From Cupriavidus sp. YR651 (GTDB taxonomy: Bacteria > Pseudomonadota > Gammaproteobacteria > Burkholderiales > Burkholderiaceae): a stretch of DNA of 64,000 nucleotides. The stretch covers positions 123,571-187,570 of the forward strand of contig NZ_FMYZ01000004.1 in the NCBI RefSeq assembly GCF_900101625.1. The letters run 5' to 3'. The notes beneath the pieces were generated by a model, which was not told the origin of the DNA, searched no databases, and saw only the letters and a program-made list of their open reading frames with translations. The translations under genes and the position numbers were made by a program. Positions 4,888 through 13,716 of this stretch are shown one piece after another. Each line of letters opens with the position of its first letter. The first letter of the stretch is position 1.

Positions 4888-6513
4888 TTATTTCTTCAAC
4901 CGATACGCCAACTGAGGCCGGGTGATTCCCAGCATCCGCGCCGCGGACGACAGGTTGCCGCGCGTCGTATCGATGGCCAGCTGCATCAGCCTGGCCTCGA
5001 TCTGCGCCAGCGATACCTGCTGGTCCAGCAGCTTCTGCAACAGGGCATCGGCATCTTCCGGCGGCTCGGCCATGCCTGCCTGCTGGCTGGCGAACAGGTG
5101 GGAAGTATCGATCAGCCCCGCCGCGGGGGCGAGCAGTACGCCACGTTCGATCATGTTCTCCAGTTCGCGGATATTGCCCGGCCACTGGTACTGCATCAGC
5201 GCATTGCGCGCCCGCTGGCTCAGGCCGCGTACCTGCTTCTGGTAGCGCGCATTGAATCGTTGGATGAAGGCCTGCGCCAGTTCGGGAATGTCATCGCGGC
5301 GATCACGCAAGGCCGGGATGCTGACAGGGTAGGTGCTGATGCGGTAGAACAGGTCGGCGCGGAACTGGGTCTGCCGGATCGCCTGGGCCAGGTTGACGTT
5401 GGTGGCCGCGATCAGGCGCACATCGACCTTGCGTGTCTCGACACCGCCCAGCCGCTCGACCTCGGCGTTTTGCAGCACGCGCAGCAGCTTGACCTGCGCC
5501 GACAGCGGCAGGTCGCCGATTTCGTCGAGAAACAGCGTGCCGCCGTGGGCCCGCTCGAAGCGCCCGGGGCGCGACTGTTGGGCGCCGGTGTAGGCGCCTT
5601 TCTCCACGCCGAATAGCTCCGATTCAATCAGCTCGTGCGGGATCGCGGCGCAGTTCACCGCAATGAACGGCTGCTCGCTGCGCGGGCCGTGGTCGTGCAG
5701 CCAGCGGGCGAACATCTCCTTGCCGGCGCCGGTCTCCCCGGTCAGCAGTACGGTGATGTGGCTGTCGGCTGCGGCGGACAGCAGGTTGAAGGCCTCGCGG
5801 AACGCGGGCGACTGTCCGATCAGGTTGCCCTGGTTGGCGCCGCACAGCGTCTCGCGCAACGTGCTGACTTCCTGCTGCAGGGTCAGCAGGTCGCTGATGA
5901 CCGAATCGGGTTCGAAGTACTTCAGGTAGTCCGGATCGTCCCACGCTTCGGCCGGCTTGCCGACGATGCGGCACAGCGAGTCCAGCCGCCGCTGGCATTC
6001 GGTTTCCTTGTAGATGACGAGGCGGTCCATGAAGGTGCTGCTGTAGCCCGATGCATAGCCCAGCTGCACCCAGCAGCCGCCTTCCTCGCGGCTGAGCGCT
6101 TCGTTGTAGGGCGCTTCGCCTTCCCACGAATCCTGCCAGAGAAACTCGCCGTAGAAGTGGCCGGTGTCGCGGTCGATCTCCAGGCGCACCGGGTCGACCC
6201 GTGTCACGCCTTCGAGCATGTGCAGCTGCGGGCCCAGCAGGAAGGCATCGTTGGGCGAGCTCGCCAGTTCCTCCTTGCGCTCGCGCTTGACCATCTCGGC
6301 ATCGCGCATGCCCTGCGCGTAGCCCATCCGGATCAGGAGGCCCTTGCCGCGCTCCAGCCCCAACGTGTCCAGGATCTCCTTGCGCAGATAGCTCAGTGCC
6401 TCGGTATGCATCAGCACCATGCGGGATTCCCCGAGCCGGATTTGTGCGGCCTTGGGGTCGATTGTCAGCAGCGAAGCCAGGTCGAACGGCGGCTGCTTGG
6501 GGGGCGCGGTCAT
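4888..6513 (-). CDS. poxR: Sigma-54-dependent phenol-responsive activator, DmpR/PoxR/MopR family
   Basis: A 541-residue activator of the XylR/DmpR class. Residues 1-210 form the effector-sensing (XylR_N plus V4R) domain. By spacing, the residues described for MopR are all kept with an offset of eight: H98 and W126 (phenol contacts), C147, E170, C173 and C181 (zinc site). The AAA+ domain has Walker A GETGAGKE (259-266), a GAYTGA sigma-54 contact loop and GGTLFLDEIGDL. A Fis-type helix-turn-helix ends the protein (NLSSAARMLGITRPQLAYRL). MTAPPK at 6513 is preferred because GGAGG then sits six bases upstream. Divergent from the phenol hydroxylase operon, whose activator sites lie in the shared intergenic region. 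Confidence 0.95.
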   Translation of the reverse strand: MTAPPKQPPFDLASLLTIDPKAAQIRLGESRMVLMHTEALSYLRKEILDTLGLERGKGLLIRMGYAQGMRDAEMVKRERKEELASSPNDAFLLGPQLHMLEGVTRVDPVRLEIDRDTGHFYGEFLWQDSWEGEAPYNEALSREEGGCWVQLGYASGYSSTFMDRLVIYKETECQRRLDSLCRIVGKPAEAWDDPDYLKYFEPDSVISDLLTLQQEVSTLRETLCGANQGNLIGQSPAFREAFNLLSAAADSHITVLLTGETGAGKEMFARWLHDHGPRSEQPFIAVNCAAIPHELIESELFGVEKGAYTGAQQSRPGRFERAHGGTLFLDEIGDLPLSAQVKLLRVLQNAEVERLGGVETRKVDVRLIAATNVNLAQAIRQTQFRADLFYRISTYPVSIPALRDRRDDIPELAQAFIQRFNARYQKQVRGLSQRARNALMQYQWPGNIRELENMIERGVLLAPAAGLIDTSHLFASQQAGMAEPPEDADALLQKLLDQQVSLAQIEARLMQLAIDTTRGNLSSAARMLGITRPQLAYRLKK

Positions 6514-6663
6514 CTCCATCCTCCAGATTACCTGTGGGCGTGGATCGATCCAGAGGGGAGTCGTCCTGCCGCGTTTTGCTCGTAGCCTACACGCCGGTTC
6601 AAGGGCCACGCAAGCACGCGTCGCGTGCCGCGCAAGGCATGGTGCGCCGCAATAGCGGCGGAT

Positions 6664-6711
6664 TTGATCATTTGGTGAAAACCGGCTTCCTCACCTCATC
6701 AAATCGTCAAG
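6664..6711 (+). promoter_or_regulatory. Pair of activator (UAS) sites for the phenol operon
   Basis: Two degenerate copies of the XylR/DmpR-type palindrome TTGATCA-N2-TGATCAA: TTGATCATTTGGTGAA at 6664-6679 and CTCATCAAATCGTCAAG at 6695-6711. Their centres are about 31-32 bases apart, three helical turns, and lie roughly 100 and 130 bases upstream of the expected transcription start. Geometry matches known enhancer sites of this regulator family. Confidence 0.75.
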
Positions 6712-6777: not shown

Positions 6778-6793
6778 TGGCACGGCTCTCGCT
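6778..6793 (+). promoter_or_regulatory. Sigma-54 (-24/-12) promoter of the phenol hydroxylase operon
   Basis: TGGCACGGCTCTCGCT matches the -24/-12 consensus TGGCACG-N4-TTGCW with one mismatch; the GG at 6779-6780 and GC at 6791-6792 have the required spacing. Transcription should start near 6804, about 50 bases before the first gene. Confidence 0.8.
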
Positions 6794-7190: not shown

Positions 7191-8189
7191 ATGCAAATCG
7201 ATATCCGTACGGACAGCGTCAGCCCGATCCGGCAGACCTTCGCCAACCTCGCGCGGCGCCTTGGCGCCGACAAGCCGGCCACGCGCTACCAGGAGGCGAT
7301 GTACGACCTGCAGCCGGAAACCAGTTTCCACTACCGCCCGCTGTGGCAGCCGCAATACGAGCTCTACGATGTGCGCCGCACGCAGGTGGTCATGCAGGAC
7401 TGGTACGCCCTGAAGGACCCACGCCAGTTCTACTACGGCAGCTATGTCAACATCCGCGCCCGCCAGCAGGAGGCGATGGACAAGAATCTCGAGTTCGTGG
7501 AGAAGCGCGGCCTGCTGGCGTCGCTGCCTGCGCACTTGCATGAGCTGCTGACGCTCGGCGTGGTGCCGCTGCGCCATGTCGAGTGGGCGGCCAATATGAA
7601 CAATGCCGCCATCACCGCCTACGGCTACGGCTCGGCCATCACCGAGGCGGCCATGTTCCAGACCATGGACCGGCTCGGCATTGCGCAGTACCTGACCCGC
7701 ATCGGCCTCTTGGCCGGCGACAAGGCGGCCGTTGACGCCGCCAAGGCGGCGTGGATGGAAGACCTCGCCTGGCAGCCGCTGCGCCATGCGGTCGAGGACC
7801 TGCTGGTGCGCGACGACTGGTTCGAGCTGCACGTCGCCCAGAACCTCGTCATGGACGGGCTGCTTTACCCGCTGGTCTACCAGCGCCTCGATGCGCGGCT
7901 GTCGGCCGAAAGCCCGGCGTTCTCGCTGGTCACCGATTTCATGAACACCTGGTACGCCGAGACCGCGCGCTGGGTCGACGCCACGGTCAAGACGGCGGCG
8001 CAGGAGCAGCCTGCCAACGCCGTCGTGATTGCCGGCTTCGCCTTTGCCTGGCTCGACCGCTTCCAGCACGCGCTGGCGCCACTGGCGCGCCGCCTGTTTG
8101 CCGGGGAAGCCGAGGCCGCGCTGGATGAAGCCGTGGCGGCGCTGACAAAGCGCCTGGCGGGACTCGGCCTTGTCCGTGCCGCCGCATGA
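7191..8189 (+). CDS. dmpL: Phenol hydroxylase oxygenase beta subunit, DmpL type
   Basis: A 332-residue subunit of the multicomponent phenol hydroxylase, the ferritin-like partner of the catalytic alpha subunit that lacks the diiron site. Length and sequence (QEAMYDLQPETSFHYRPLWQ; GSYVNIRARQQEAMDKNLEF) fit DmpL/PoxB. A GGAG site precedes the ATG. Third-party role: forms the (alpha-beta-gamma)2 oxygenase with the dmpN and dmpO products. The following gene starts 17 bases after its stop. Confidence 0.93.
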   Translation: MQIDIRTDSVSPIRQTFANLARRLGADKPATRYQEAMYDLQPETSFHYRPLWQPQYELYDVRRTQVVMQDWYALKDPRQFYYGSYVNIRARQQEAMDKNLEFVEKRGLLASLPAHLHELLTLGVVPLRHVEWAANMNNAAITAYGYGSAITEAAMFQTMDRLGIAQYLTRIGLLAGDKAAVDAAKAAWMEDLAWQPLRHAVEDLLVRDDWFELHVAQNLVMDGLLYPLVYQRLDARLSAESPAFSLVTDFMNTWYAETARWVDATVKTAAQEQPANAVVIAGFAFAWLDRFQHALAPLARRLFAGEAEAALDEAVAALTKRLAGLGLVRAAA

Positions 8190-8206
8190 CACCGAGGGAG
8201 CCCGCC

Positions 8207-8488
8207 ATGACCGCCCAGACCACCCAGATCGTATTCATCGCCTTGCAAGCCAACGAAGAGATGCGTCCCGTCATCGACGCCATCGAGGCCGACAACCCGC
8301 ATGCCACCGTCAACCGCTACCCGGCCATGGTCAAGATCGACGCGCCCGGCCGCCTGGAGATCAACCGCGCCAGTGTGGAGGACCGCATCGGACGCAGCTG
8401 GGACGTGCAGGAACTGCAGCTCGGCCTGATCTCGCTGGCCGGCAATATCGACGAGACCGAAGACCAGTTCGTGCTGGCCTGGCATTGA
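8207..8488 (+). CDS. dmpM: Phenol hydroxylase regulatory (coupling) protein, DmpM type
   Basis: A 93-residue cofactor-free effector protein that binds the oxygenase and couples electron transfer to hydroxylation. The sequence shows the family pattern (NEEMRPVIDAIEADNPHATV; MVKIDAPGRLEINRASVED). An in-frame ATG at 8186 overlaps the dmpL stop, but MTAQTTQ at 8207 has the ribosome-binding site GAGGGAG and gives the usual ~90-residue length. Confidence 0.93.
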   Translation: MTAQTTQIVFIALQANEEMRPVIDAIEADNPHATVNRYPAMVKIDAPGRLEINRASVEDRIGRSWDVQELQLGLISLAGNIDETEDQFVLAWH

Positions 8489-8522
8489 ACCGGAAACATC
8501 AGAAACATCAGGAGACAAGGAC

Positions 8523-10142
8523 ATGACTACCGCCACCCCCGAAGCGCCCGCAGCCCCCGCAGCCAATCAGCGGCAGGCCGCCAGGCCCAAGCTGTCGCTC
8601 AAGGACAAGTACGCCGTGCTGACGCGCGACCTGGGCTGGGAAACCACCTACCAGCCGATGGATACCGTATTCCCGCACGACAAGTTCGAAGGCATCGTGA
8701 TCCATGACTGGAACGGCTGGGAGGACCCGTTCCGCCTGACCATGGATGCGTACTGGAAATTCCAGTCCGAGAAGGAACGCAAGCTGTACGCGATCATCGA
8801 CGCCTTCCAGCAGAACAACGGCCAGCTGAACGTCACCGACGCGCGCTACGTCAACGCGCTCAAGCTGTTCCTGACCGGCGTGTCGCCGCTGGAATATGCC
8901 GCGCACCGCGGCTTTGCGATGGCCGGCCGCAGCCTGCGCGGCGCGGGGGCGCGCGTGGCCTGCCAGATGCAGTCGATCGACGAGCTGCGCCACTGCCAGA
9001 CCCAGATCCACACGATCAGCCACTACAACAAGTACTTCAACGGATTTTCCGACTGGCGCCACCTGCATGACCGGCTGTGGTACCTGTCGGTGCCCAAGTC
9101 CTACTTCGAGGACGCCATGACGGCGGGCCCGTTCGAGTTCATCACGGCCATCTCGTTCTCGTTCGAGTACGTGCTGACCAACCTGCTGTTCATGCCGTTC
9201 ATGTCCGGCGCGGCCTACAACGGCGACATGGCAACCGTGACCTTCGGCTTCTCCGCGCAGTCCGACGAATCGCGCCACATGACGCTGGGGCTGGAGGTGG
9301 TGAAGTTCATGCTGGAGCAGGACCCCGCCAACCGCCCCATCATCCAGAAGTGGATCGACAAGTGGTTCTGGCGTGGCTACCGGCTGCTGACGCTGGTGGC
9401 GATGATGATGGACTACATGTGTCCTAAGCGCGTGATGAGCTGGAAGGAGGCCTGGGAGATCTACTTCGAGCAGAACGGCGGCGCGCTGTTTGCCGATCTG
9501 GCGCGCTACGGCATCCGCATGCCCAAGTACCACGAGCAGGCGGCGAAGGAGAAGGACCACCTGTCGCACATCGCCTGGTCGATCTTCTACAACTTCAACC
9601 ATGCGGCCGCGCTCCATACCTGGGTGCCGGAGCCGTCGGAAATGGACTGGCTGGCCGAGAAGTACCCCGACAGCTTCGACAAGCACTATCGCCCGCGCTT
9701 CGACTACTGGCAGCAGCAACAGGAGGCGGGCCAGCGCTGGGCCAACCCGGGCCTGCCGATGTTGTGCCAGGTCTGCCAGATCCCGATGGCCTTCACCGAG
9801 CCGGACGACCCCACGCAGATCTGCTACCGCGAGGCCGAGCACGCCGGCGACCACTACCACTTCTGTTCCGATGGCTGCCGCGACATCTTCCTCGACGAGC
9901 CCGAGAAGTATGTGCAGGCCTGGCTGCCCGTGCATCAGATCTTCCAGGGCAACTGCGGCGGCACGACCCTGCCGGAGGTGCTCGACTGGTACCACCTCGG
10001 CCCGCAGGACCGTGGCGACTATGCCGATTCGCAGGATCGCGCCAACTGGCAGCGCTGGACCGGCACGGCAGCAGCGCCGGCAACGGCGCCGGGCAACAGC
10101 GCGCCGTGCTGCGACCACGGACACGACCACGGACACGACTGA
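8523..10142 (+). CDS. dmpN: Phenol hydroxylase oxygenase alpha subunit, DmpN type (diiron)
   Basis: A 539-residue catalytic subunit of the soluble diiron monooxygenase that converts phenol to catechol with O2. The two D/E-E-x-R-H iron-ligand motifs are present (QSIDELRHCQTQ and QSDESRHMTLGLE). A C-terminal cysteine-containing YHS-like stretch (LCQVCQIPMAF... HFCSDGCRDIFLDEPEKY) follows, as in other phenol/toluene alpha subunits. The extreme C-terminus is His/Asp-rich (CCDHGHDHGHD), possibly metal-binding. Lies between dmpM and dmpO. Confidence 0.95.
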   Translation: MTTATPEAPAAPAANQRQAARPKLSLKDKYAVLTRDLGWETTYQPMDTVFPHDKFEGIVIHDWNGWEDPFRLTMDAYWKFQSEKERKLYAIIDAFQQNNGQLNVTDARYVNALKLFLTGVSPLEYAAHRGFAMAGRSLRGAGARVACQMQSIDELRHCQTQIHTISHYNKYFNGFSDWRHLHDRLWYLSVPKSYFEDAMTAGPFEFITAISFSFEYVLTNLLFMPFMSGAAYNGDMATVTFGFSAQSDESRHMTLGLEVVKFMLEQDPANRPIIQKWIDKWFWRGYRLLTLVAMMMDYMCPKRVMSWKEAWEIYFEQNGGALFADLARYGIRMPKYHEQAAKEKDHLSHIAWSIFYNFNHAAALHTWVPEPSEMDWLAEKYPDSFDKHYRPRFDYWQQQQEAGQRWANPGLPMLCQVCQIPMAFTEPDDPTQICYREAEHAGDHYHFCSDGCRDIFLDEPEKYVQAWLPVHQIFQGNCGGTTLPEVLDWYHLGPQDRGDYADSQDRANWQRWTGTAAAPATAPGNSAPCCDHGHDHGHD

Positions 10143-10162
10143 ACCGACATCGGGAGACCACC

Positions 10163-10525
10163 ATGCCAGTCATCGCACTGAAGCCGGGCTATGCGGGCGA
10201 GACCCGCGACCGGATCGAGAATTTCCACGGCAACCAGCTGGTGTTCTTCGGCTGGGACCAGCACCTGCTGTTCTGCAGCCCGTTCACGCTGCCGCTGCCG
10301 CCCGACATGCCGTTCGGCACCTTGGTCAGCGACGTCATCGCGCCGTTGCTGGCCGCCCACCCGGAAGGCGCGGCCATCGACTGGACGCAGGCGCAGTGGC
10401 TGCGCGGCGGCGAGCCGTTCACGCCGGACTCCGATGCCAGCCTGACCGGCAACGGGCTCGGGCACAAATCGCTGCTGCGCCTGCGCACGCCTGGCCTTGC
10501 CGGCATCGCCGGTTCCTGCAACTGA
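10163..10525 (+). CDS. dmpO: Phenol hydroxylase gamma subunit, DmpO type
   Basis: A 120-residue small subunit of the oxygenase component. It matches the DmpO/PoxE family (NQLVFFGWDQHLLFCSPFTL; PPDMPFGTLVSDVIAPLLAA). The start at 10163 follows GGGAGA. It is required for the hexameric oxygenase; no catalytic residues are known. Confidence 0.92.
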   Translation: MPVIALKPGYAGETRDRIENFHGNQLVFFGWDQHLLFCSPFTLPLPPDMPFGTLVSDVIAPLLAAHPEGAAIDWTQAQWLRGGEPFTPDSDASLTGNGLGHKSLLRLRTPGLAGIAGSCN

Positions 10526-10565
10526 AAACCGAAACGTCGCCCCAGACAGACTTACGGAGGCTGCC

Positions 10566-11624
10566 ATGACCTATCAACTGACCATCGAGCCCCTCGGCCA
10601 GACCATCGACATCGAGGAAGGCCAGACCGTGCTCGACGCATGCCTGCGCGCCGGCGTGTGGCTGCCGCACGCCTGCGGCCACGGCCTGTGCGGGACCTGC
10701 AAGGTGCAGACGCTGGAAGGCGAACTGGATCACGGCGAGGCGTCGCCATTCGCCCTGATGGACTTCGAGCGCGAGGAGGCCAAGTGCCTGGCCTGCTGCG
10801 CGACGCCGATGTCCGACATGGTGATCGAGGCCGACATCGAGCCAGATCCCGACGCACAGTGCCTGCCGCTGATGGATTTCACCGCGGAGGTCGTACGCAT
10901 CGAAGCGCTGACGCCGACCATCAAGGGCGTGTTCCTGCGTATCGAGGGCGAGCCCCTGCAGTTCCAGCCCGGCCAGTACGTCAATGTCTGGCTAGGTCAG
11001 GAGGCCGCGCCGCGCGCGTTCTCCATCGCCAGCGCGCCATCGGCAGGGGAGATCGAGCTGAACGTCCGGCTGGTGCCCGGCGGCCGCGCCACCACCTATG
11101 TGCATGAACAGCTGCAAGCCGGCGAGCGCCTGCAGCTGTCGGGCCCGCTGGGCCGCTTCTTCGTGCGCAAGAGCGACCCGCGGCCGCTGATGTTCATGGC
11201 GGGGGGATCGGGGCTGTCGAGCCCGCGCTCGATGATCCTCGACCTGCTGGAGTGCGGCGATCCGCGCGAGATCGTCCTGGTGCAGGGCGCGCGCAATGCG
11301 GGCGAGCTCTACTACCGCGACGCCTTCGAGGCGCTGGCGCGTCGGCACGACAACTTCACCTACCTGCCGGTGCTGTCCGGCGAGCCGGAACATAGCGACT
11401 GGGCTGGCGAGCGCGGCTATGTCCACGATCTGGCAGGACGCCACTTCGACAACGACTTCCGTGGCTGGCGCGCCTACCTGTGCGGGCCGCCACCGATGAT
11501 CGAGGCCTGCATCGCCACGCTGATGCAAGGCCGGTTGTTCGAGAAAGACATCTTCACCGAGAAGTTCCTGTCGGCGGCCGACGCGAGCCAGGCCACCCGC
11601 AGTCCGCTGTTCCGCTCGCTCTGA
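10566..11624 (+). CDS. dmpP: Phenol hydroxylase reductase, DmpP type
   Basis: A 352-residue NADH-dependent reductase feeding electrons to the diiron centre. The N-terminal plant-type [2Fe-2S] domain has C37, C42, C45 and C77 (HACGHGLCGTC and CLAC). A FAD-binding domain follows (RAFSIAS motif) and then an NAD-binding domain (MAGGSGLSSPRSM; YLCGPPPMI). Start at 10566 behind a GGAGG site. No ferredoxin gene of the dmpQ/xylT type and no extradiol dioxygenase follow; the next gene is catA. Confidence 0.95.
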   Translation: MTYQLTIEPLGQTIDIEEGQTVLDACLRAGVWLPHACGHGLCGTCKVQTLEGELDHGEASPFALMDFEREEAKCLACCATPMSDMVIEADIEPDPDAQCLPLMDFTAEVVRIEALTPTIKGVFLRIEGEPLQFQPGQYVNVWLGQEAAPRAFSIASAPSAGEIELNVRLVPGGRATTYVHEQLQAGERLQLSGPLGRFFVRKSDPRPLMFMAGGSGLSSPRSMILDLLECGDPREIVLVQGARNAGELYYRDAFEALARRHDNFTYLPVLSGEPEHSDWAGERGYVHDLAGRHFDNDFRGWRAYLCGPPPMIEACIATLMQGRLFEKDIFTEKFLSAADASQATRSPLFRSL

Positions 11625-11663: not shown

Positions 11664-12581
11664 ATGGACAAGATCGCAATCGACGCCGTGCTCAACCGCA
11701 TCGAGGAAAGCACCGGCCAGAACGCCAACCCGCGCATCGCCGCCATCGTGCATCGGATGGTGCGCGACATGTTCTACATGATCGAGGACCTCGACATCCA
11801 GCCCGAGGAGTTCTGGGCCGGACTCAACTACCTCGCCGAGGCAGGCCGCGCCGGCGAACTCGGCCTGATCGCGCCGGGGCTTGGCTTCGATCACTTCCTG
11901 GATCTGCGCATGGATGAGGCCGAGGCGCGCGCCGGCGTCGCGGGCGGCACGCCGCGCACCATCGAAGGACCGCTTTACGTGGCCGGCGCCCCGGTCGTCC
12001 AGGGCGAGGCCCGCCTGGACGATGGCACCGATGACGGCGAGATACTGGTGATGGAAGGGCAGGTACTCGACAGGGACGGCAAGCCGCTGCCCGATGCCAG
12101 GGTGGAGGTGTGGCACGCGAACTCGATGGGCAACTATTCCTACTTCGATCCGACCCAGAGCGCGTTCAACCTGCGGCGCACCATCGTCACCGACAGCGAG
12201 GGACGGTATCGCCTCCGCAGCATCGTGCCGGTCGGCTACAGCGTGCCGCCGGGTGGCGCCACCGACCGGCTGCTGAAGCAGCTGGACCGTCACGGCACAC
12301 GTCCGGCCCACATCCATTTCTTCGTATCCGCGCCGGGACATCGCAAGCTGACCACGCAGATCAACATCGACGGTGACCCCTATCTGTGGGATGACTTCGC
12401 CTTCGCCACGCGCGAGGGGCTGGTGCCGCCGGTCACGCGCGTCGACGACGCGGCCGCCATGCAGGCGCTGGGCGTGGACAGGCCGTTTTCGGTGATCCGC
12501 TTCAACTTCACGCTGCATGCCGACAACGCGAACGCCCCGCTGGCAGAGGTGGCGCGCCGGCGCGCGGCCGTGACGGCGTGA
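11664..12581 (+). CDS. catA: Catechol 1,2-dioxygenase
   Basis: A 305-residue intradiol dioxygenase opening catechol to cis,cis-muconate, a non-haem Fe(III) enzyme. The N-terminal helical linker domain is present, followed by the dioxygenase core with tyrosine (MGNYSYFDP) and histidine ligands (RPAHIHFFVSAPGH). It lies 39 bases after the reductase gene with its own AAGGAGA site and is probably transcribed with the hydroxylase genes, so phenol would be taken through the ortho route. Muconate-processing genes (catB, catC) are not in the window. Confidence 0.95.
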   Translation: MDKIAIDAVLNRIEESTGQNANPRIAAIVHRMVRDMFYMIEDLDIQPEEFWAGLNYLAEAGRAGELGLIAPGLGFDHFLDLRMDEAEARAGVAGGTPRTIEGPLYVAGAPVVQGEARLDDGTDDGEILVMEGQVLDRDGKPLPDARVEVWHANSMGNYSYFDPTQSAFNLRRTIVTDSEGRYRLRSIVPVGYSVPPGGATDRLLKQLDRHGTRPAHIHFFVSAPGHRKLTTQINIDGDPYLWDDFAFATREGLVPPVTRVDDAAAMQALGVDRPFSVIRFNFTLHADNANAPLAEVARRRAAVTA

Positions 12582-12599
12582 CGCCATGCGCGCCGCGAT

Positions 12600-12646
12600 T
12601 TGATCATTTGATCAAAGCCGGGCCGCGAAATTGATCCATTGAGCAA
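12600..12646 (+). promoter_or_regulatory. Second pair of PoxR-type activator (UAS) sites
   Basis: TTGATCATTTGATCAA at 12600-12615 and TTGATCCATTGAGCAA at 12631-12646, centres 31 bases apart. These are closer to the XylR/DmpR enhancer consensus than the pair in front of the phenol operon; the first has perfect TTGATCA/TGATCAA arms. They start 18 bases after the catA stop and lie about 135-165 bases upstream of a -24/-12 promoter. Confidence 0.8.
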
Positions 12647-12765
12647 GGCCGTCGTGGCCCGGTCGGCCACACGCCGGGGATGTGGTGCGGGAATTGTCCT
12701 GCACCCGTCATCTCCCGGCGCCTTCACGCGTCGTCCTCACCACTCCGAACCCGCGAACACCTTCC

Positions 12766-12781
12766 TGGCACGCCCGATGCA
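12766..12781 (+). promoter_or_regulatory. Sigma-54 (-24/-12) promoter before the LRAT-domain gene
   Basis: TGGCACGCCCGATGCA matches TGGCACG-N4-TTGCA with one mismatch and the correct GG-N10-GC spacing (12767-12768 and 12779-12780). The expected transcription start is near 12792, about 40 bases before the ATG at 12834. Confidence 0.8.
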
Positions 12782-12833
12782 GAGAAAGGGCATGGCCGGG
12801 CGGCGGCCGGCAAGCAGTAACCAGGAGACGGTG

Positions 12834-13412
12834 ATGGAATCCAGCGGCAAAACTCCGGAGGCGATGATCCGGCCAGCGTCCCATGCGATGGCGGACGCGT
12901 CTGGGTGTGCCGCGGAGTCCGAACCACCGCTCGGCGCACACCTCATCACGCCGCGCCACGGCTACGCGCATCACGGCATCTACGTCGGCCACGGCATGGT
13001 GGTGCATTACGCGGGCTACTGCCACCGGCGGCAACGTGGCCCGGTGGAAGAGCTGACGCTGGCAGCATTCGCGGACGGCCACGGCATCACGATCCTGGCG
13101 ACACCAATGGCACGCTACAGCGCGGCGGAATCCGTCAGGCGCGCCCGCTCCCGGCTGGGCGAAGATCGCTACAACCTGCTGACCAACAACTGTGAACACC
13201 TTTGTACGTGGTGCCTGTACGGCGAAAGCCGCAGCGGGCAGGTACGGCATTGCCTGTTGCATCCGCTCCGGGGCCTGCGCATGGCGGCCGGCATGCTGAG
13301 GGGCTGGTGGGAGACCGAGACGCAGTCCGCAGCCGCCTGCCGTGGTCCTCGCTCGCGCTCACAAACGATTACAACCTCGTACGCTTGCTGGCAATATGCT
13401 CCCGAGCGCTGA
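12834..13412 (+). CDS. LRAT-domain (NlpC/P60-superfamily) protein under putative PoxR/sigma-54 control
   Basis: A 192-residue cytosolic protein with a lecithin:retinol acyltransferase-like domain (about residues 33-130). Two histidines spaced as in LRAT (H46 in HHGIYVG and H58 in VVHY, 12 apart) and C120 in NNCEHL form the expected Cys-His-His set. Such proteins are thiol acyltransferases, phospholipases or amidases. The start at 12834 has GGAG upstream; the longer frame from 12639 would overlap the promoter. Two PoxR-type sites and a -24/-12 promoter precede it, so aromatic effectors should induce it. The C-terminal ~50 residues (Arg/Cys-rich) look unlike a domain. The substrate is unknown. 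Confidence 0.8.
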   Translation: MESSGKTPEAMIRPASHAMADASGCAAESEPPLGAHLITPRHGYAHHGIYVGHGMVVHYAGYCHRRQRGPVEELTLAAFADGHGITILATPMARYSAAESVRRARSRLGEDRYNLLTNNCEHLCTWCLYGESRSGQVRHCLLHPLRGLRMAAGMLRGWWETETQSAAACRGPRSRSQTITTSYACWQYAPER

Positions 13413-13449: not shown

Positions 13450-13716
13450 ATGGGTAAGATCCGGGCACTGGGTCTACTGGCGTCTGTTTTGACGCTATTG
13501 AGCGGTGGGAGCAATGCGGCCGCCCAGCAGGTGGTGGGAGGCATGGGCGAGCCGATCCATATCGGCACGTTCGACGCGCGCGGGGAGAACCGGCTTACGG
13601 GGCGTATGCCGCCGGAGAAGCCATCGGCAAAGGCCCGGCGCGTGCGCGATGCCGGAATGCCTGCAACAACTACGCGTTACGAGAAGCCGACCTTGCCGGG
13701 GAAGCATCTGCGCTAG
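13450..13716 (+). CDS. Small secreted protein of unknown function
   Basis: An 88-residue protein with a clear signal peptide (MGKIRALGLLASVLTLLSGG, cleavage likely after SNAAA) and a basic, proline-rich mature part (GRMPPEKPSAKARRVRDAGM). No family recognised. The start at 13450 has a GGAGAG site; a longer open frame back to 13342 has none. It begins 37 bases after the LRAT-domain gene and could share its transcript. Confidence 0.6.
   Translation: MGKIRALGLLASVLTLLSGGSNAAAQQVVGGMGEPIHIGTFDARGENRLTGRMPPEKPSAKARRVRDAGMPATTTRYEKPTLPGKHLR

Follow-up and report, generated by a model that had tools for sequence, protein, structure and literature searches.

Phenol regulons controlled by activators such as DmpR, XylR and MopR are textbook systems that are also used as biosensors, and to our knowledge their targets described so far are catabolic or regulatory genes. 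We also know of hardly any natural role assigned to bacterial LRAT/PLAAT enzymes. In regulons of the XylR/DmpR type, the sigma-54 promoter is preceded at ∼100-200 bp by palindromic UASs (PMC7264223, in excerpt). Among the cases that we have seen, the nearest precedent for an additional promoter behind a hydroxylase operon that is inducible by phenol and dependent on the activator is that of mphX in Acinetobacter calcoaceticus PHEA-2, which, according to the parts of the source consulted, is phenol-induced, has its own promoter behind the operon and lowers operon expression (PMC3063778). In the acxRABC loci of Cupriavidus, a sigma-54 activator accompanies a solvent-degrading operon, and in C. 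metallidurans AcxR is described as a sigma-54 activator, with a sigma-54 promoter located between acxR and acxA (PMC2864759, in excerpt).

Here, we analyzed a 64-kb stretch of Cupriavidus DNA (the window), in which poxR, the phenol hydroxylase genes and catA are followed by a gene of the LRAT family (Table 1). The original prediction was that this gene is a second target of the phenol-sensing activator, and had located two palindromes, a -24/-12 element and an LRAT-domain gene behind catA. These features are all present: the palindromes lie exactly at 12600-12615 and 12631-12646 (31 bp apart, start to start), the -24/-12 element is found at 12766-12781 and the gene at 12834-13412 carries PF04970. 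The claim that this pair is nearer to the consensus TTGATCAATTGATCAA than the pair of the hydroxylase promoter also held, with one and two mismatches versus three (6664) and ∼5 by hand count (6695). The LRAT promoter thus resembles those of XylR/DmpR regulons in having two UASs ∼30 bp apart, a promoter in range and an XylR_N activator in the same genome; it shares the activator class with the XylR, DmpR, PoxR and MopR regulons, whereas its target would be an LRAT enzyme instead of a catabolic or regulatory gene. From sequence, we consider it probable (∼0.75) that the LRAT gene has a promoter of its own and is a second PoxR target, and that its product is a lipid-acting acyl enzyme.

Table 1 Features of the phenol/LRAT locus (positions in the window)
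Feature	Position	Strand	Remarks
poxR, XylR/DmpR-type phenol-sensing sigma-54 activator	4888-6609	-	Pfam and DmpR structure match
Hydroxylase UAS 1, TTGATCATTTGGTGAA	6664-6679	+	3 mismatches to TTGATCAATTGATCAA
Hydroxylase UAS 2 (weak), CTCATCAAATCGTCAA	6695-6710	+	31 bp after UAS 1; read by hand
Hydroxylase promoter, -24/-12 element, TGGCACGGCTCTCGCT	6778-6793	+	1 mismatch
Phenol hydroxylase genes	7191-11624	+	7191-8189, 8523-10142, reductase 10566-11624
catA, catechol 1,2-dioxygenase	11664-12581	+	Dioxygenase_C 222.5 bits, Dioxygenase_N 75.4 bits
LRAT promoter UAS 1, TTGATCATTTGATCAA	12600-12615	+	1 mismatch to TTGATCAATTGATCAA; kept in 4 relatives
LRAT promoter UAS 2, TTGATCCATTGAGCAA	12631-12646	+	2 mismatches to TTGATCAATTGATCAA; kept in 4 relatives
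Predicted LRAT -24/-12 sigma-54 promoter, TGGCACGCCCGATGCA	12766-12781	+	GG-N10-GC, 1 mismatch
Ribosome-binding site AGGAG	12823-12827	+	6 bases 5' of the LRAT ATG
LRAT-family gene, 192 aa	12834-13412	+	ATG at 12834; PF04970; triad H46-H58-C120
88-aa ORF	13450-13716	+	37 bp 3' of the LRAT gene; secretion-signal-like start by eye

The start of poxR was taken as a GTG, and the true start is probably downstream of it; the product was matched by XylR_N (116.6 bits), Sigma54_activat (233.8) and HTH_8 (48.2). The hydroxylase operon extends from ∼6.8 to 11.6 kb, its small subunits being left unannotated between the genes listed; the first two of these matched Phenol_Hydrox in Pfam with 228 and 244 bits, respectively, and all three have relatives in 11 further pox loci. 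At the position of the ribosome-binding site, the relatives of the LRAT gene likewise have a G-rich GGAGACGG-like stretch. A terminator was looked for between catA and the LRAT gene and none was found, so read-through from pox could also express the LRAT gene. The 88-aa ORF, possibly co-transcribed with the LRAT gene, had no Pfam match and, among the loci read, matches only in its own genome. It should be noted that the gene finder and the choice of starts were simple heuristics, so that promoter-to-start distances and neighbor counts are approximate.

The possibility that the sites are due to chance was rejected on the basis of window and genome counts, a composite search and the footprint in relatives. 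With up to three mismatches, three UAS sites were found in the window versus 0.04 expected in shuffled sequences, the third being the site at 6664 in the hydroxylase promoter. Perfect matches to TTGATCNNTTGANCAA in the 6.96-Mb genome were exactly the two LRAT UASs; with one mismatch, two other places (C25 and C38) were found, and the reversed control gave none. The -24/-12 match, on the other hand, is not meaningful by itself: the number of such sites in the window (≤2 mismatches) was at chance level (10 found versus 15.5 expected), and the element gains weight only because of its position and conservation. In 119 fetched stretches of Cupriavidus DNA (1.74 Mb), a composite pattern (a UAS pair 28-32 bp apart with a -24/-12 element 60-200 bp further) occurred eight times, at five LRAT genes and three of 13 pox loci (in one of these three, L255, on the opposite strand), and not at all in a Markov control (60 stretches, one strand); as this DNA was fetched for its LRAT or pox content, the count shows specificity within the set and is not a genome rate. 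The window's own pox promoter does not fit the composite pattern, its second UAS being weak. A stricter pair pattern had only two matches in 60 genomes of the genus, namely the LRAT promoters of the window's own genome (G000) and of G014, and it is too strict in that it misses the pairs of G010, G039 and G040. The stretch between the UASs and the promoter of the LRAT gene is 30% AT and, judged by composition only, an AT-rich IHF site is therefore not evident.

We then searched for the LRAT protein in 60 genomes of the genus Cupriavidus, 43 of which had a match, and in 398 Burkholderiaceae genomes, where no match with more than 60% identity was found outside Cupriavidus (matches at E≤1e-50). 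Homologs with at least 66% identity outside the window's own genome were found at six loci in five genomes (G014, G010, G039, G040 and two in G033). The sites are conserved with the gene in four of the six (L115-L118; one in each of four genomes, with LRAT homologs 70-77% identical) and absent in two (L119 and L120). In L115-L118, the UAS pair is 29-31 bp apart and a promoter-like element follows 134-136 bp past UAS 2 (135 bp in the window); a third UAS lies farther upstream in L118. Pairwise comparison of the window, L115, L116 and L118 (six pairings, L117 being omitted as a near copy of L116) revealed that the UASs and the -24/-12 element are 69-94% identical, versus 39-45% for the intervening 118-120 bp (shuffled mean 47%, highest 57%); the exception is the intervening stretch of the window and L115, which is 60% identical. 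L115, also listed as L035, belongs to C. lacunae S23 (G014), the only one of the six close-homolog loci that shares the position of the LRAT gene behind pox-catA, and its -24 box is degraded (GGGCATG, three mismatches). In tblastn searches of the 16, 8 and 16 kb surrounding L116, L117 and L118, respectively, no pox genes were found; as contigs of the four draft assemblies of L115-L118 end near some of the loci (∼3 kb away for L117), linkage to pox past a contig end is possible and only a position behind catA is excluded. The poxR genes of these genomes are on other contigs. Because L116-L118 keep the sites with no pox gene in the stretch read, it appears that the sites travel with the LRAT gene and not with the pox operon. 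For the same reason, namely that the pair stays with the LRAT gene where this is not behind catA, a contribution of the UAS pair to expression of the pox operon upstream is unlikely.

On the original prediction, close relatives that keep the gene should also keep the sites, which was true of four genomes and failed in one, G033, with two homologs. Neither L119 (73.9% identity) nor L120 (66.5%) has UAS sites; a -24/-12 match is lacking in L119 and weak in L120 (three mismatches), even though G033 encodes a DmpR-type activator and its hydroxylase promoter carries a perfect UAS. In a more distant homolog (63%) of G058, L123, one good UAS is followed 30 bp on by a half-site, and the promoter-like stretch, read by eye, has a 1-bp insertion; no XylR_N protein was found in this genome, which fits decay of the sites without an activator. 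The arrangement behind catA recurred in C. lacunae and not in the other catA-bearing pox loci compared (two of 11, the window included). An LRAT gene was absent behind the operon in all 11 further pox loci, which were taken from genomes with XylR_N and of which nine have catA and two (L254 and L255) do not (tblastn, bits >100). In one of these loci, L251 (G043), catA is immediately followed by a lone UAS (TTGATCATTTGATCAG, position 7705), which may be a remnant, as no LRAT gene is present there. In a phylogenetic tree, the five UAS-bearing LRAT genes formed a clade with the two from G033 (99/98); this clade is nested in a group of 11 genes with weak support (90/63), to which the G058 gene also belongs. 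A single gain of the sites followed by losses would be the simplest reading, though not a proven one.

PoxR is the only XylR_N protein found in the window's own genome; one XylR_N match each was also found in G010, G039 and G040, and two in G014. It matches the DmpR structure 6iy8 with E 1e-144 and, in our residue mapping, keeps a His and a Trp, 28 residues apart, that are named as residues of the DmpR phenol pocket (PMC7264223, in excerpt). A census of six genomes selected for their LRAT homologs gave 22 UASs (≤2 mismatches), of which 10 are at LRAT genes, seven at pox genes, one near a Phenol_Hydrox-family monooxygenase gene and four elsewhere (one of them inside the norR ORF of the window's own genome); the reversed control gave one site. 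Based on the single XylR_N protein, the census and the DmpR-like pocket residues, PoxR is likely to be the activator of the LRAT promoter here. Thus, the original prediction of a second target for the phenol-sensing activator is strongly supported by the footprint in relatives and the single XylR_N protein, at the level of sequence inference. The monooxygenase gene in the census (L171; G010, contig C195:5846) has a two-mismatch UAS upstream and is likely a further target of the single XylR_N activator of that genome.

PF04970 was the only Pfam match of the LRAT protein at E≤0.001 (81.5 bits versus a cut-off of 24.3), and NCBIfam models gave no match. Human PLAAT2 (4dpz) was matched both by sequence (E 5e-10) and by predicted fold (E 7.9e-6). 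H46, H58 and C120 (in an NCEH motif) align to the PLAAT2 triad, are invariant in 25 sequences, and presumably have the catalytic roles of the PLAAT His-His-Cys triad; of 108 homologs in the genus, 106 fit a triad motif. The structure model has a mean pLDDT of 68.3, with eight of the ten ten-residue blocks from 31 to 130 at 85-92 and both ends disordered, and its top seven matches in a structure search were PLAAT structures (TM-score 0.65-0.79 over the target). Ranked eighth was chain E7 of 8iuf, the respiratory supercomplex of Euglena gracilis (E 7.6e-4), which may be an LRAT-like subunit. With a hydrophobic moment of ∼0.5, the C-terminal helix fails the hydropathy cut for a membrane span, which 24 of 106 homologs pass. 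Sequence and model suggest that the product is a permuted papain-like cysteine enzyme (NlpC/P60 superfamily, LRAT/PLAAT-like), predicted to be an acyltransferase or phospholipase, and acyl chemistry on membrane lipids is our best guess for its activity. It has the fold and triad of human PLAAT2/PLAAT3 (HRASLS2/3) and LRAT, whereas it is bacterial, has another C-terminal part and an activity that is predicted only. The permuted papain-like fold is also common to Tox-Act1, LnsA, YiiX and BcPPNE, whose lipid or acyl substrates are shown or proposed: in the available excerpts, Tox-Act1 cleaves PG and PE (PMC12994826), LnsA takes part in lipoprotein N-acylation (PMC7387801) and YiiX is able to bind lipid (PMC3142127). 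According to the same excerpts, Tox-Act1 forms a clade apart from LRAT and has the role of a secreted toxin, YiiX and BcPPNE are YaeF/YiiX-like, and LnsA is a remote member of the superfamily.

In the mechanism that we propose, phenol-bound PoxR would bind the palindrome pair at 12600-12646 and loop onto sigma-54 RNA polymerase at 12766-12781. Transcription, which would be phenol-induced and RpoN-dependent, would then begin at ∼12792, a start that we assume from the usual spacing to the -12 element. Judged by its family, the LRAT product would most likely form an acyl-enzyme from a membrane phospholipid, and the acyl chain might then be released or passed to another lipid, an amine or a lipoprotein. 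As a guess at its physiological role, the envelope may thereby be adjusted while membrane-active phenol is degraded, which is made more plausible by the LRAT genes in acetone-carboxylase/AcxR loci. As the switch region looks built for the phenol sensor and several relatives keep it even where the gene lies elsewhere, phenol breakdown is probably tied to a second, perhaps membrane-related response. The suggestion that lipid or acyl remodeling forms a solvent-stress arm of the regulon appears plausible and would fit the PLAAT-like triad, the fold and the LRAT genes of the acetone-carboxylase loci.

To examine the pattern more widely, we analyzed 108 LRAT genes of the genus. Thirteen matches were not fetched, two of them strong (G041:C253 and G045:C56) and the rest fragmentary or weak, and the weak match L137 was dropped for lack of a tblastn match. 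A -24/-12 element (≤2 mismatches, within 300 bp) was found at 38 of these 108 versus 30 of 870 control genes, the controls being other predicted genes from the same stretches. The element was also present within 350 bp of the match at 16 of 22 further loci, which comprise four plasmid records, two named genomes and 16 matches in the family from other genera; one of the plasmid records, L180, is also among the 108 as L221. None of 76 scanned Acinetobacter LRAT loci had such a match (≤2 mismatches); for two of these, L087 and L100, the stretch scanned was misplaced, their match being elsewhere in the locus, and L103 was too short to be included. At one Acinetobacter locus (A. sichuanensis L068; 4501-4956 and 7974-8513), a translation by eye suggested a phenol-hydroxylase-reductase-like fragment ∼3 kb upstream of the LRAT gene.

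Within 6 kb of the 108 genes, sigma-54 activators of one neighbor cluster were present at 53, PP2C phosphatases at 33, ABC exporters at 31, small GG-leader-like proteins at 25 and acetone-carboxylase genes at 14. As the LRAT genes are related, these counts are not independent events. Neighbor clusters were formed by single linkage and, for every kind except the acetone-carboxylase genes, a single representative was scanned with Pfam, which gave the sigma-54 interaction domain for the activator, PP2C for the phosphatase, C39 peptidase, ABC and cNMP-binding domains for the exporter and no family for the GG-leader-like protein. The LRAT gene has the carboxylase genes on one side and the activator on the other in 13 of the 14 acetone cases; of the 14, eight have the promoter element with up to two mismatches, one has it with three and five have none. 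The C. pinatubonensis HN-2 plasmid p2 is an annotated example. LRAT genes adjoin a sigma-54 activator and acetone-carboxylase genes at L180, L213, L218, L226, L239, L242, L244 and L245, all but L180 with a -24/-12 element at approximately -43 to -56. The acxRABC loci thus resemble the phenol locus in combining a sigma-54 activator and a solvent-degrading operon (PMC2864759, in excerpt), here with an LRAT gene inside, and differ from it in the activator (GAF-type in L180), the LRAT clade and the absence of any XylR-type UAS found. Exporter- and acetone-labeled LRAT genes form mostly, not wholly, separate clades (six and four label changes on the tree). A recurring exporter cluster with an LRAT gene was observed in L135 (the window's own genome, contig C32) and ∼30 other loci, for example, L124 and L129; it includes an HlyD-like fusion protein, a PpiC isomerase, a C39-peptidase ABC exporter with cNMP domains, a sigma-54 activator, a PP2C phosphatase and a GG-leader-like protein (AIRGGGAPWVFGW or AVRGGGAPWVFGW), and its LRAT gene has a sigma-54 promoter. 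It looks like a peptide-export system, although not one familiar to us. Small proteins with repeated Y-T-D-G-A-R-like units are encoded near the LRAT genes of L122, L123 and L136. The pattern looks more general than a single locus, and the position of the largest labeled group of LRAT relatives beside peptide-exporter genes suggests other roles as well.

Several other explanations have to be weighed against a second PoxR target with a lipid-acting product. The LRAT gene could be a passenger whose UAS pair and -24/-12 element have fallen out of use and whose expression, if any, comes from pox-catA read-through. Such a passenger would fit the lack of a detected terminator behind catA, the partial degradation of the promoter in C. 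lacunae and of the promoter and UAS pair in the distant G058 homolog, and the absence of sites in G033. However, L116-L118, not behind catA, keep the sites and their spacing with no similarity in the DNA between them, and no other place in the window's own genome matches the UAS pattern as well as its two sites do, which makes a passenger decidedly unlikely. It would be highly improbable that the sites serve another activator of the XylR family, for example, a toluene-sensing one: TTGATC palindromes are common to the whole XylR/DmpR subfamily and G014 has two XylR_N proteins, but G000, G010, G039 and G040 have only one match each, which in G000 is the PoxR of the window.

The product, on the other hand, might be a regulator or modulator of the pathway, like MphX. 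The genetic position is similar, in that mphX also lies behind a hydroxylase operon and its promoter depends on the XylR/DmpR-type activator MphR (PMC3063778, in excerpt), a dependence that is predicted for the LRAT gene. The idea that MphX is an LRAT protein was rejected, as it is assigned to COG4313 in the parts of that source consulted; MphX has a predicted signal peptide, whereas the LRAT protein is an unrelated cysteine enzyme with no obvious signal peptide by eye; an MphX-type (COG4313) repressor is likewise not what its sole Pfam match indicates. With the triad motif so widely kept, a modulator appears unlikely. Finally, the substrates of the family may be peptides or secreted proteins, for example, an exported peptide that is acylated or processed, and the copy at the phenol locus may have been recruited for this purpose instead of for membrane lipids. 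We regard this as somewhat unlikely: PP2C, ABC exporter and GG-leader-like genes are frequent neighbors in the genus and a small secreted-looking ORF follows the LRAT gene, yet all 11 genes in the wider UAS clade are without the exporter label, the acetone clade is mostly without it (two acetone loci have an ABC gene at the edge) and, in the excerpts available, characterized relatives act on lipids (PMC12994826 and PMC3142127).

A search of open-licence PMC papers found nothing on LRAT with phenol hydroxylase; among the best 8-20 matches listed there of up to 18,834 papers, no title linked an LRAT gene to a regulon for phenol or acetone or to one under sigma-54, and the sole match for LRAT and Cupriavidus concerns pig lungs. 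A conserved lipid-type enzyme under a phenol enhancer would add an envelope arm to phenol regulons, and a link between LRAT and phenol would give a bacterial handle on LRAT/PLAAT enzymes. The sigma-54/LRAT pattern, with its phenol, acetone and exporter contexts, is testable in a genetically tractable genus. More tentatively, and with some doubt on our side, LRAT/PLAAT may be a sigma-54-driven satellite module of Burkholderiaceae that was recruited at least twice, under unrelated activators, into regulons for small membrane-active substrates (PoxR for phenol and AcxR for acetone), and that remodels membrane acyl chains. If so, one sensor would turn on solvent degradation and solvent resistance together.
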